64,000 nucleotides of DNA from Bosea vaviloviae. GTDB taxonomy: Bacteria; Pseudomonadota; Alphaproteobacteria; Rhizobiales; Beijerinckiaceae. The DNA is taken from assembly GCF_001741865.1 (NCBI RefSeq), contig NZ_CP017147.1:2409001-2473000 (forward strand), read 5' to 3'. The position numbers were made by a program, and so were the translations under genes. The first letter of the stretch is position 1. Each line of letters begins with the position of its first letter. Below are positions 57,768 through 62,614 of the stretch, piece by piece. Under the pieces are notes generated by a model, which searched no databases, was not told where the DNA came from, and saw nothing but the letters and a program-made list of their open reading frames with translations.

Positions 57768-60187
57768 AGTTCTCTCTGTCCTGGTTGAAGGACCATCTCG
57801 ACACTACGGATTCGCTCGACACCGTCACGGAGACGCTGACCCGCGTCGGGCTCGAGGTCGAGGCCGTCGAAGACAAGGCGAAGGCTCTCCAGGCCTTCAC
57901 CATCGCCTATGTGATCGAGGCCAAGCAGCACCCGAACGCCGACCGGCTGCGCGTCTGCATGGTCGACACCGGCGCGGGCGAACCCGTGCAGGTCGTCTGC
58001 GGCGCGCCCAATGCCCGCACCGGCATGAAGAGCGTCTTCTCAGCCCCCGGCACCTACATCCCCGGCAAGGACATCACGCTCGGCAAGGGCGTCATTCGCG
58101 GCGTCGAGTCGAACGGCATGCTCTGCTCGGCCGCCGAGTTGCAGCTCTCCGAGGATCATGACGGCATCATCGACCTGCCTGACGACGCACCTGTCGGCCA
58201 GCCCTATGCCACCTATGCCGGGCTCGACGATGCCGTGATCGAGATCGCGGTGACGCCCAACCGCGCCGATGCGCTCGGCGTCGCCGGCGTCGCGCGCGAC
58301 CTCGCCGCCGCCGGGCTTGGTGGCCTCAAGACGACGCAGGCCCAGCCTGTGCGCGGGACTTATCCTTGCCCGGTCAAGGTGACGCTCGATTTCGCCGGGG
58401 CGGACAAGGCCCTCTGCCCGGTCTTCGCTTTGCGGCTGGTGCGCGGCGTCAAGAACGGGCCTTCGCCGGAATGGCTGCAGGCGAGGCTGCGCGCCATCGG
58501 GCTCAGGCCGATCAACGCGCTGGTCGACATCACCAATTTCATGACCTTCGACCGCAACCGGCCGCTGCACGTCTTCGACGCCAACAAGGTCAAGGGCAAT
58601 CTCACGGTGCGCCGCGCCAAGGAGGGCGAGACGATCCTGGCGCTCGACGGCAAGAGCTACACGCTGACCGGCGAGCAGGTCGTCATCGCCGATGAGCATG
58701 GCGTCGAGTCGCTTGCCGGCATCATGGGCGGCGAGGCCTCCGGCTGCGACGAGACCACCACCGATGTGCTGGTCGAGAGCGCGCTCTGGGACCCGCTCAA
58801 CATTGCCCGCTCCGGCCGCGCGCTCGGCATCAACTCCGATGCGCGCTATCGCTTCGAGCGCGGCGTCGATCCCGATTTCACCCGTCCGGGCCTCGATCTC
58901 GCCACCGCGATGATCCTCGATCTCTGCGGCGGCGAAGCCTCCGAGATGGTCTTCGAGGGTGATCTGCCCGAGAGCGCCCATGCGATCGATTTTCCCTGGT
59001 CCGAGGTCAGGCGCCTGACCGGGCTCGATCTGCCGCAGATCGAGATGAAGGTCGCGCTGACCTCGCTCGGCTTCCACGTCTCGGGCGCCGGCGAGCGCGT
59101 CAAGGTCGCCGCTCCGTCCTGGCGCGGCGATGTCGTGGGGAAGGCCGATCTCGTCGAGGAGATCGTGCGTATCGCCGGGCTCGACCGCGTCGTCTCGACG
59201 CCATTGCCGCGCATCAAGGGCGAGGTGGTGAAGCCGGTCCTCACCGTGCTGCAGAAGCGCACCCGTGCCGCCAAGCGCCTGCTCGCCAGCCGCGGCCTCG
59301 TCGAGGCGGTGACCTGGTCCTTCATCTCGCATGACGCCGCGATTGTGTTCGGCGGCGGCTCGCGCCAGCTCGTGCTCGCCAATCCGATCGCGGCCGATCT
59401 CTCCGACATGCGCCCCTCGCTGCTGCCGGGGCTGATCCGCGCGGGCCAGCTCAACGTCGATCGCGGCCTCGGCGACGTCGCGCTGTTCGAGGTCGGGCAG
59501 GTCTTCAAGGACGATACGCCCGAGGGCCAGTTCATCGCCGCGTCCGGCCTGCGCCGGGGCACGGCGAGGCCGGAAGGCGTCGGCCGCCATTGGGACGGCG
59601 CCGCCAGGCCCGTCGATACCTTCGACGCCAAGGCCGATCTCATGGGCCTGCTGACGGGGCTCGGCGTCCCGGTCGGCGGCCTGCAGATCGTCGCGGGCGG
59701 CCCGGCTTGGGCCCATCCCGGCCGTTCGGCCACGCTCCAGTTTGGCCCCAAGGGCGTCATCGGCGCTTTCGGCGAGGTGCACCCCAAGGTGCTGAAGGCG
59801 CTCGACGTCAAGGGCCCGCTCTTCGCCTTCGAGATCCATCTCGATGCGCTGCCGCTGCCGAAATACAAGCCGACCAAGGTCAAGCCGAAGCTGGCGCTCT
59901 CGGGCTTCCAGCCGGTGACGCGCGATTTCGCCTTCATCGTCGAAAAGACGATCGCGGCCGGCGAGATGATGAAGACCGCGCAGAACGCCGACCGGGCTTT
60001 GATCGCGGATGTCTCGGTTTTCGACCTCTATGAAGGGCAAGGCGTCGATGCCGGCAAGAAGTCGGTCGCGCTGGCTGTGACCCTGCAGCCGGTCGACAAG
60101 ACGCTGACCGAGGCCGAGATCGAGGCGGTCGGCGCCAAGATCGTCGCCGAGATGGCCAAGCGCTATGGGGCGGCGCTGCGGGGGTAG
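57764..60187 (+). CDS. pheT: phenylalanine--tRNA ligase beta subunit
   Basis: An 807-residue beta subunit of normal length. Domains in order: N-terminal ([17 protein letters not shown]), the EMAP-like tRNA-binding domain (about 40-150: [20 protein letters not shown]), B3/B4 editing domain ([25 protein letters not shown]), B5, the catalytic-like core ([32 protein letters not shown]) and the C-terminal ferredoxin-like anticodon domain ([13 protein letters not shown]). It is coupled by ATGA to the glycosyltransferase gene. A hairpin follows at 60208. Confidence 0.97.
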
Positions 60188-60207
60188 GGCACGGGAAACC
60201 CCTTCCG

Positions 60208-60237
60208 CATCGAAGTCGGCTGTTGCCGACTTCGATG
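60208..60237 (+). repeat. 13-bp perfect hairpin after pheT
   Basis: CATCGAAGTCGGC, loop TGTT, and exact complement, 21 bases after the pheT stop. It has no T tract, so it may be a repeat rather than a terminator. Confidence 0.6.
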
Positions 60238-60264
60238 AAGCCGTCGCGGCACGCTGCGAAGGGC

Positions 60265-60390
60265 GCGGGGAACCCTTCTCCCGGATGGGAGAAGGGCAGG
60301 GATGAGGGCCTGCCGCTGATTGTTGAGGTTCGGCGGAGCCGCAACGCCTTCTATTGAGAGGGCACACCCTCATCCGGCCCTCCGGGCCAC
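60265..60390. repeat. inverted pair of palindromic repeats, interrupted by the IS110 element
   Basis: A plus-oriented unit (GGGGAACCCTTCTCCCGG-ATGGGAGAAGGG... at about 60265-60335) is followed by a minus-oriented unit starting GCACACCCTCATCCGG at 60362. The latter is cut at CCAC-CT (60391); its other half, TCTCCCATCCGGGAGAAGG, resumes at 61559. Rejoining gives CACCTTCTCCC, as in the glyS repeat. Confidence 0.85.
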
Positions 60391-60437
60391 CTTGCAACAT
60401 GGATCTGTGCTGAACTGCTGGTGTTCCGTGAGGAATG

Positions 60438-60596
60438 CCCTGCTCCAGGTGGCCGCCTGGAGCAGGGCGGTCGTCGGACGGATCGACGCCACCCGAGCCG
60501 CGAGGCTGTGGAGAAGCAGGATCGCCGTCGGCTCTTCATCGAACCCGGATTGGTTGCCGGAACCTCGTGTTCGTTTGCAAGGCAGGGTCGACGAAG
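60438..60596 (+). ncRNA. candidate bridge RNA of the IS110 element
   Basis: The noncoding leader folds by eye into three parts. A 12-bp hairpin (60438-60449/60456-60467). A first internal loop: stem GACGG/CCGTC (60477-60481/60525-60529), 5' strand with GCCACC (60488-60493, equal to the left target 60386-60391), apical hairpin AGCC-GCGA-GGCT, 3' strand with GGAGAAG (60510-60516, complementary to core plus right target CTTCTCC at 61557-61563). A second loop: stem TCGA-CCC/GGG-TCGA, 5' strand with GTTGC (60553-60557, equal to the right IS end plus core), hairpin GAAC/GTTC, 3' strand TTGCAAG (60575-60581, complementary to core plus left IS end). This is the described bridge RNA plan. Exact ends are unknown. 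Confidence 0.75.
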
Positions 60597-61550
60597 ATGG
60601 AACAGCATAGCACAGGCGGGACGATTTGCGCCGGCATCGATGTCAGCAAGGCCTGGCTCGACATTGCTCTGACACCTGGGCAGGAGGCTTGGCGTGAAGC
60701 CAATACGGCGGAAGGCCACGCCAGGTTGGCGCAAAAGCTGAAGGCCGTCGGCGTCGAGAAGGTCGGCCTCGAAGCCACGGGCGGCTACGAGCTTGCGGTG
60801 ACCGAGGCCTTACGGGCGGAAGGCTTGCCGGTGATCGTGTTCCAGCCGCGCCAGGTGAAGGCCTATGGAGCCTTCAAGCTCCAACGCGCCAAGAGCGATG
60901 GCATCGATGCGCGGCTCATCGCCCAATGCACGCAGGCGCAAGACACGCTGCGTGACGCCCCCTCCCCAGATCTGCTCGCGCTGGCCGAACATCTCACCCG
61001 GATCGAGCAGATCGAAGAGGATCTCGCCCGAGCCCGGATCCGGCGCGAGCGCTTCCGCGACGAACGTCTCCTCGCCCAGCTCGCCGACGAGATCGCCCGG
61101 TTGAAGCGGCTCAAGGCGGCCGAACTTGCCCGGCTCGGCCAAGCCGTCGCCGACCGGGCCGAACTGGCGCACCGGATGAAGCTGCTGCTCTCCATTCCAG
61201 GGCTGGGGAACAGAACCGCGCTCGCCCTTGTCATCCGCATGCCCGAGCTTGGCCGGCTCTCGCGCACGCAAGCTGCAGCCCTCGTCGGCGTCGCCCCCTT
61301 CGTCCATGAATCGGGCCGCTACAAGGGCCAGCGCCGCACCGGCGGCGGCCGCGCCCGGCTGCGAACCAGCCTCTTCGCCGCAGCCCAGGCCGCAGCTCTG
61401 CGCTGGAACCCAGCCCTCGTCGCGCTCTATCGCCGCCTCGCCGAACGCGGCAGGCCTCACGCCCTCGCCATCGTCGCATGCGTCCGAAAGCTCGTCATCT
61501 TCGCTAATGCCGTCATCGCAAAAGACAGGCCCTGGAAAACCCCCGCATGA
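60597..61550 (+). CDS. IS110-family transposase
   Basis: A 317-residue recombinase with a RuvC-like DEDD domain and a C-terminal Tnp domain with the catalytic Ser. Visible: CAGIDVSKAWLDIAL (first Asp), VGLEATGGYELAV (Glu), QRAKSDGIDARLIAQ (Asp pair), then a helical coiled coil (RIEQIEEDLARARIRRERF), LLSIPGLGNRTALALVIRMPELGRLSRTQAAALVGVAPFVHESGRYKGQRRTGGGRARLR. The ATG at 60597 follows the RNA-coding leader; the frame before it belongs to the leader. Intact, so potentially active. Confidence 0.96.
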   Translation: MEQHSTGGTICAGIDVSKAWLDIALTPGQEAWREANTAEGHARLAQKLKAVGVEKVGLEATGGYELAVTEALRAEGLPVIVFQPRQVKAYGAFKLQRAKSDGIDARLIAQCTQAQDTLRDAPSPDLLALAEHLTRIEQIEEDLARARIRRERFRDERLLAQLADEIARLKRLKAAELARLGQAVADRAELAHRMKLLLSIPGLGNRTALALVIRMPELGRLSRTQAAALVGVAPFVHESGRYKGQRRTGGGRARLRTSLFAAAQAAALRWNPALVALYRRLAERGRPHALAIVACVRKLVIFANAVIAKDRPWKTPA

Positions 61551-61702
61551 TAGTTGCTTCTCCCATCCGGGAGAAGGGAAGAGCGCGTGGCGCGTGCTCC
61601 AACCGCCCCCTCACCATTGATCAGGATTGTGTAATAATCGACGCGCGCAATCGCTCGAGAAGCAGGCTATCGGCTACCGATTATTGCAACCATGCGGCCC
61701 TG

Positions 61703-62614
61703 ATGACCGTCACCGAAATCCCTGTCCAGGACAGCCTCTTCCCCGGTTTCCGCCTGCTCGATGTCGCGACATCGGGCGCGCGCATCCGTGTCCGGACGGG
61801 CGGGGAGGGGCCGGCTCTGCTGTTGCTTCATGGCTACCCGCAGACGCATGCGCTCTGGCACAAGCTCGCTGCGCGCTTGAAGGATAGCTTCACTTTGGTC
61901 TGCGCCGATCTGCGCGGCTATGGCGACAGCGACAAGCCGGCCAGCGATGCCGAGCATTTCCCCTATTCCAAGCGCGCCATGGCGCTCGACATGGCGCAGG
62001 TCATGACGGCGCTCGGGCATCAGCGCTTCTTCGTCGGCGCGCATGATCGCGGCGCGCGCGTCGCCCATCGCCTGGCGCTCGACCATGCCGAGCGCGTCAC
62101 CAAGCTCGCGACGCTGGACATCGCGCCGACCCGCGAGATGTACGCCAACACCACCGACGCCTTCGCCCGCGCCTATTGGCACTGGTTCTTCCTGATCCAG
62201 CCCGCGCCCTTCCCGGAGCGGATGATCGGGGCGGATCCCGAGGCTTACTGGCGCAAGAAATGCGGCTCCGGCTCGGCCGGGCTGACGCCCTTCGCACCTG
62301 AGGCCTTGGCGCATTACCTGCGCTGCTTCAGCGATCCGCAGACCATCCATGCGAGTTGCGAGGATTATCGCGCCGCCGCCACCATCGACATCCGCCATGA
62401 CGACGAGGATGGCGGGCGCAAGCTCAATCAGCCGCTGCTCGCGCTCTGGGGCGGCAACGGCATCATCGGCACATGTTTCGAGCCTCTGGCGCTGTGGCGG
62501 CAGCGCGCCGAGAACGTCCAAGGCCGTGCCTTGCCAAGCGGGCATTATCTGGCGGAGGAGATTCCCGATCTCGTCGCCGCCGAATTCACGGCCTTCTTTG
62601 GAGAACACCCATGA
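61703..62614 (+). CDS. haloacetate (fluoroacetate) dehalogenase-like alpha/beta hydrolase
   Basis: A 303-residue alpha/beta hydrolase. HGYPQTHALWHKLA is the oxyanion loop; the nucleophile Asp is in VGAHDRGARVAHRLALDH, with the Arg residues that bind the carboxylate in fluoroacetate dehalogenase; YWHWFFLIQ gives the halide-binding His-Trp; LDIAPTREMY holds the acid region and LPSGHYLAEEIPD the catalytic His. This set matches FAcD enzymes such as RPA1163, which hydrolyse fluoroacetate to glycolate. Epoxide hydrolase is the alternative. It is 19 bases upstream of a dehydrogenase gene, likely one operon. Confidence 0.88.
   Translation: MTVTEIPVQDSLFPGFRLLDVATSGARIRVRTGGEGPALLLLHGYPQTHALWHKLAARLKDSFTLVCADLRGYGDSDKPASDAEHFPYSKRAMALDMAQVMTALGHQRFFVGAHDRGARVAHRLALDHAERVTKLATLDIAPTREMYANTTDAFARAYWHWFFLIQPAPFPERMIGADPEAYWRKKCGSGSAGLTPFAPEALAHYLRCFSDPQTIHASCEDYRAAATIDIRHDDEDGGRKLNQPLLALWGGNGIIGTCFEPLALWRQRAENVQGRALPSGHYLAEEIPDLVAAEFTAFFGEHP

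Follow-up and report, generated by a model that had tools for sequence, protein, structure and literature searches.

A predicted bridge RNA in the leader of an IS110-group insertion sequence that splits a palindromic repeat in Bosea vaviloviae

Introduction

How does an insertion sequence find one particular spot inside a palindromic repeat of its host? This question is raised by a locus in the window, the whole stretch of 64,000 nucleotides of the Bosea vaviloviae genome that was analysed. There, a palindromic repeat is interrupted by an element with a long leader and a single recombinase gene, and an earlier note had proposed that the leader reads as a bridge RNA. Judging from the sequence, it is very likely that this is a site-specific IS110-group element, and that its leader encodes a bridge RNA pairing with the element's own ends and with the palindromic repeat. 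The anatomy of the element, a conserved RNA structure, the co-variation of guides with targets and with donors, and uninterrupted sites in other genomes are established here.

Anatomy of the element and its recombinase

The element and its parts are as follows.

60391-61558, + strand: IS110-group insertion sequence, bounded by two copies of the CT core
60391-60392, no strand: core CT, left copy (shared letters would permit CTT)
60393..60596, + strand: left end, 204 nt, encodes the predicted bridge RNA
60597..61550, + strand: IS110 recombinase, 317 aa (D15, E59, D101, D104, S239; PF01548, PF02371, NF033542)
61551..61556, + strand: right end, 6 nt past the stop codon
61557-61558, no strand: core CT, right copy

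The earlier note had the element running from 60391 to 61563. The start is retained, and the end is moved about five bases to the left because the right core copy occupies 61557-61558. The two ends are very unequal, 204 nt on the left and 6 nt on the right, and there are no long subterminal inverted repeats. The only inverted repeat of the ends is five bases long, GTTGC/GCAAC, where the ends join. The left donor, GATAGTTG, runs into the stop codon of the recombinase. By their Pfam domains, the flanking genes encode a phenylalanyl-tRNA synthetase beta subunit on one side and an alpha/beta hydrolase on the other. The recombinase frame is also open across much of the leader (window 60435-60596, giving a 371-aa ORF), which is probably a side effect of high GC content.

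The recombinase carries the DEDD RuvC-like domain PF01548 (64 bits, cut-off 29) and the C-terminal domain PF02371 (63.5 bits, cut-off 21.3). It also exceeds the cut-off of the NCBIfam model NF033542, 'IS110 family RNA-guided transposase' (164.5 against 140). With phmmer, it matches the IS621 recombinase (PDB 8wt6) at E 1.5e-24 and 90 bits, and it matches the ISCro4 transposase (PDB 9t56) at E 3.5e-24. The residues D15, E59, D101, D104, and S239 are invariant across 38 aligned homologues and fall within conserved blocks of the alignment with IS621, for which D11, E60, D102, D105, and S241 are reported as catalytic (PMC11208158).

The target site and the palindromic repeat of the host

The insertion point is a CT core within the repeat, CAC-CT-TCTCC (hyphens set off the core here and below). 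The interrupted repeat has two parts.

60262..60390, + strand: palindromic repeat, left part, ending in the left target GGGCCAC (start approximate)
61559..61592, + strand: palindromic repeat, right part, starting with the right target TCTCCC (end approximate)

The start was set at position 129 of the rebuilt empty site, near which most repeat matches begin, and the end from the many repeat matches that end near position 293.

Four matches to the element were found in its own genome. Two of these are full elements, the window copy included, with 2 differences in 1170 bases; the remaining two are the leader hairpin matched against itself. The second full copy lies in other surroundings at an identical 16-base target, CGGGCCACCT-TCTCCC, as the earlier note had predicted for other copies. 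The genome has 46 sites with at most one mismatch from this 16-mer, and the backward control pattern has none. The rebuilt empty site was searched in 67 genomes of the genus and had matches in 61, many of them repeat copies only or the flanking gene only. In three of these genomes (L281, L282, and L283, 76-79% identical), GCCACCTTCTCCC is read without interruption across the insertion point. These three align with the right flank to its end; on the left they align with the repeat, without the end of the tRNA synthetase gene. The core CT is present at both ends of the element and the uninterrupted sites read CACCTTCTCCC, as expected of a CT core and scarless insertion. The claim that the element splits a palindromic repeat at CT is confirmed.

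The second copy is part of a crowded locus (L134, C1:5842700-5846200). A second IS110 element and an IS481-like DDE element are found beside it, the latter with rve and LZ_Tnp_IS481 domains and with ends TGTCC/GGACA between copies of CCGG. One copy of the repeat seems to have been struck there by three different insertion sequences.

The predicted bridge RNA

The leader very probably makes a bridge RNA, with the following predicted parts.

60437..60468, + strand: bridge RNA 5' hairpin; among relatives, both sides have changed in 12 of 14 pairs, and 93.6% of cells are paired
60470..60532, + strand: target-binding loop with basal helices and GCC/GGC apical hairpin (helices 2-4 of the co-variation test)
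60488-60493, + strand: left target guide GCCACC, matches the left target followed by the core C
60510-60516, + strand: right target guide GGAGAAG, complementary to CT followed by TCTCC
60544..60587, + strand: donor-binding loop with CCC/GGG basal stem and GAAC/GTTC apical hairpin
60553-60557, + strand: left donor guide GTTGC, matches the right end GTTG followed by the core C
60560-60563 with 60569-60572, + strand: GAAC/GTTC apical hairpin of the donor loop
60575-60581, + strand: right donor guide TTGCAAG, complementary to CT followed by the left end TGCAA
60582, + strand: predicted first donor-loop handshake base G, opposite the last left-target base C

The 5' hairpin and the two looped hairpins are common to 16 or 17 aligned related leaders. 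In the co-variation test, 82.2% of cells were paired, against 34-51% after sliding by 1-3 columns. Both sides had changed in 24 of 32 pairs, and none of 500 shuffles attained any of the five measures. Helix 5 was set one column out of register in this test (36.3% of cells paired there); the donor hairpin is in register in two other consensus alignments, and all four pairs of its GAAC/GUUC helix are present in 17/17 aligned leaders. When the window leader is folded alone, its minimum-energy fold differs from the consensus and the loops are absent (energy z-score -2.22). The loops, basal stems, and apical hairpins described earlier are thus borne out by the alignments of relatives and not by the fold of the single leader.

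A fit to a bridge RNA model was another expectation of the earlier note. An Rfam search of 59500-62500 gave five matches up to E 10 and none at gathering score (best E 0.12); they included microRNA and CRISPR-repeat models and were rejected, as all were below gathering score. With R2, a covariance model built from 16 related leaders with the window excluded, a fit was obtained at 60460-60590, which scores 96.1 bits (E 1.5e-20). The next best of the seven places listed in its scan of 64 kb scored 12.5 bits.

The four guide matches that had been claimed are all present. The donor guides, GTTGC and TTGCAAG, match the element's own ends, as expected of a bridge RNA. In 200,000 dinucleotide shuffles of the leader, the target pair arose in 212, the donor pair in 316, and both in none, a result that is only indicative since the test was devised after the matches had been seen. 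The first 14 bases of the leader were left out of this test, and the motifs used were GCCAC, GGAGAAG, GTTG, and TTGCAAG, 12-45 bases apart. The left target guide has CC at the core and not CT, so the core T is unpaired in the window and this guide does not pair with both core bases there. Pairing with both core strands is reported to be strongly preferred in IS621 (PMC11208160). CT is found at this position in 19/47 unique RNAs, and pairing of the left guide with both core bases is taken here as a preference and not as a defining feature.

Relatives of the element

Relatives were collected by protein, by alignment, and by RNA model. A single-protein scan of genome contigs found no relatives, and an alignment query of genome contigs found 26 loci. 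Relatives were present in 15 of 72,556 plasmid records. At the E-value limits used in each search, matches were found in 3/397 genomes of the order by single protein and in 13/385 genomes of the class by protein alignment (own genome included in both), in 1/5 and 16/247 genomes of two families by protein alignment, and, by RNA model, in 19 of 20 chosen genomes (own genome included) and in 29/391 genomes of a further family.

Scanning the fetched loci with a motif and removing duplicates by flank left 100 copies that have a left junction; these represent 47 distinct RNAs. The right target is readable in 75 of the 100 copies; the other 25, left out of the right half, are at contig ends, have masked bases, or had no motif found. 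Junctions were set by hand for the window, its second copy, and the Sinorhizobium meliloti rows, and by motif for all others. The counts exclude one gapped alignment row, L139 (which has no left junction), and the model hits missed by the motif, including weaker hits of a second subgroup; L062 stays a row of alignments A2 and A4. The constant AGC and CAAG (47/47) are present by construction, since the motif catches only RNAs that have AGC behind the right target guide as well as CAAG at the donor guide. The base following CAAG is unconstrained.

Some loci are unusual. L139, L062, and L190 are on one MAG contig (L190 is G1020 C233), an inverted duplicate with arms of 1474 bases, and the two head-to-head bridge RNAs of L190 therefore look like an assembly artefact. 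At two loci of G1329 (L220 and L222), a palindrome of about 74 bases has one IS110 left end in each arm, head to head. The bridge RNAs differ between the two sides, and the target is offered in opposite sense by both arms. A subgroup with another loop layout is represented by L070, L083, and L088 (G772) and by L072 (G117). Pieces of its leaders fit their own targets, for example GTCGTC-CT-GACG, and it stands outside the statistics.

Co-variation of guides with targets and donors

When the 47 RNAs are grouped by guide, 36 classes result. For the left half, the match to the own target is 5.47 of 6 against 3.90 for permuted pairs (36 classes), and for the right half it is 3.97 of 5 against 1.96 (31 classes). 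A stricter grouping has one class for each distinct target type, 18 in all. The left half then gives 5.11 of 6 against 3.43 and the right half 4.22 of 5 against 1.73, with none of 20,000 permutations as good in either half; z is about 8 in each half, in permutations that ignore phylogeny. For the left score, the best of four offsets was taken in own as well as in permuted pairs. Judged by both halves, no other target fits better than the own one in 16 of the 18 types. In the other two, L199 and L208, other targets match the guides better than their own. The left-half match is weak in L148, L151, and L177.

The donor side also co-varies. The left-end base after CTTG (base 5) pairs with the donor guide in 47/47 unique RNAs, as T-A in 36, T-G in 5, C-G in 3, and G-C in 3.

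For IS621, it is reported that, once strands have been exchanged, the final bases of the left target pair with the donor-loop bases immediately following the right donor guide (PMC11208158). The corresponding first handshake base pairs with the target in 46/47 RNAs here (G-C in 43, A-T in 3), and 2 of 20,000 permutations do as well. The lone mismatch, G/A, is in L151, whose boundary is doubtful. The three A-T cases form one group in the recombinase tree (94/87), so the switch was likely one event. The second donor-loop handshake base of the window, C, is opposite A and unpaired. For the target loop, the scan motif itself fixes the first handshake base as C. The second was A in 18, G in 12, T in 5, and C in 2 of the 37 RNAs with right-end TG, and it follows no Watson-Crick rule with the T opposite.

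Registers on the repeat and the recombinase tree

Three registers were found on this repeat family. The window and S. meliloti elements are at CAC-CT-TCTCC. Register B is represented by G385 and a Rhizobiales MAG at CACCTT-CT-CCC, three bases beyond the window register, and by G873 at CACCT-CT-CCC, two bases further in its own form of the repeat; in these three relatives the first donor-loop handshake base has changed in step with the target. Register C, CCC-CT-CATCC, is used by Mesorhizobium L-8-3 and G806 and lies 22 bases upstream on the window's repeat. The guides fit in all three registers, with a mismatch in the left half of S. meliloti and G873. In Bradyrhizobium, Rhodopseudomonas, and other genomes of that bacterial family, members are mostly at other sites, such as GCCCACC-CT-ACG, many of them at a repeat end, and their left guides fit. 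In S. kummerowiae (L103), a copy lies at GGCAC-CT-TCTCCTGG; the flanks shown there contain no obvious palindrome, as though matching the guide sufficed.

An apparent grouping of the repeat-targeting elements in a first recombinase tree was lost after the tree was rebuilt. The first tree had two rows of doubtful frame with very long branches (L140 and L072) and long-branch joins; for the rebuilt tree, frames were taken by tblastn and the second subgroup was excluded. In it, register B is one clade (94/87), and register C is one clade (100/100) that adjoins the window element (92/79). The position of S. meliloti is without resolution.

The second, more distant IS110 of the own genome has three copies (L132, L133, and L134). 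Its leader was found by RNA model R1 (E 4.6e-9, 54.2 bits). Its guides, read as CCCC and GGATGAG, fit CCCC-CT-CATCC at two copies and a near form of the site, TTCC-CT-CATCC, at the third. It thus targets the other part of the window element's repeat. On balance, we lean towards a joint reading in which this alphaproteobacterial bridge-RNA clade follows the abundant host repeats through guides that are rewritten naturally, with three registers on one repeat family, and in which the second IS110 also uses register C, so that two bridge RNAs share one repeat.

Proposed mechanism and alternative explanations

The formation of a circle, transcription, RNA-protein binding, cleavage, and strand exchange are proposed by analogy with IS621. 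The element would excise precisely as a circle, and transcription of the leader would yield a bridge RNA made up of a 5' hairpin and two internal loops. In the donor loop, the right end would be the partner of GTTGC, and CT plus the circle's left end that of TTGCAAG. Strands would then be exchanged at CT by the DEDD/serine recombinase, and as a result insertion would go to CAC-CT-TCTCC in the host's palindromic repeat.

The leader could be explained in other ways. The recombinase might read the DNA itself, in which case the leader would serve only in translational control, as a structured part of the mRNA, and its matches to the target would be incidental. The right donor guide ends 15 nt 5' of the start codon, and the donor match could partly be RNA structure because, in the consensus fold of the whole leader, the left end and the donor guide form a closing stem. 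The loop positions, however, follow the target, and the advantage of own guides across target types, which no permutation equalled, makes this explanation very unlikely. The guide-target match might also be a relic of repeat sequence copied from the target into the leader, as the guides do resemble the repeat that is targeted. Such a relic would be hard to reconcile with guide halves that are split between the two arms of a loop and differ in sense, one same-sense and the other opposite, with donor halves arranged likewise, or with register B guides that have shifted with the core and are not the same piece of the repeat. It is considered extremely unlikely.

An IS1111-type element, which would have long subterminal inverted repeats and a long right end holding its RNA, is brought to mind by the short inverted repeat at the junction of the ends. 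Here the right end cannot hold an RNA because it is 6 nt long; the leader carries the predicted RNA, and the bottom-strand match comes before the top-strand match, as reported for the IS110 type (PMC11187229). The chance of this explanation appears vanishingly small. The bridge RNA reading of the earlier note is instead supported by the co-variation of guides with targets, by this guide order, and by the NF033542 match.

Comparison with known systems

IS110 bridge RNAs, insertion into repeated palindromes, and natural redirection have already been published (PMC11208160, PMC11187229). The element resembles IS621 of E. coli, as reported in PMC11208160 and PMC11208158, in its DEDD and serine recombinase, its left-end RNA, its CT core, the order of 5' hairpin, target loop, and donor loop, the strand pattern of the guides, the use of repeated palindromes as targets, and the first donor-loop handshake base. 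It differs in that the recombinase is distant and the target and donor sequences are others. The right target match extends five bases past the core, whereas the right guide described for IS621 has four bases in all, and the left target guide leaves the core T unpaired in many members, unlike that described for IS621. The ISCro4 transposase is a homologous recombinase that was compared by sequence match only.

ISEc21, described with its seekRNA (PMC11187229), is similar in having an IS110-type upstream RNA with the bottom-strand match before the top-strand match, and natural redirection is reported there for a relative of ISEc21. The element and target are different, and the RNA was sequenced there, whereas it is predicted from DNA here.

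Among the titles and abstract openings searched, a body that most subscription journals lie outside of, no paper on guide-target co-variation in this clade was found. What is added is a divergent bridge-RNA clade with 18 natural target types and their guides, three registers, and one natural handshake switch, including guide pairs whose positions on one repeat differ by two to three bases. It offers ready-made tests of the guide rules derived from IS621, and its members are candidates for naturally occurring sources of programmable recombinases.

ISRm19 of Sinorhizobium meliloti 1021 is an IS110-family element reported with 4/4 copies in REP sequences, two of them on pSymB (PMC1525189). The passages on ISRm19 in that 2006 paper name no RNA. 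The S. meliloti relative found here (L099-L101 and L104, with L103 from S. kummerowiae) occurs at two places on pSymB of strain 1021, and its guide letters and target register are identical to those of the window element. Taken together, these facts make it probably ISRm19. Its protein is about 48% identical to the window recombinase. A likely RNA mechanism is also provided for the ISRm19-type insertion into rhizobial repeats that was reported in 2006.
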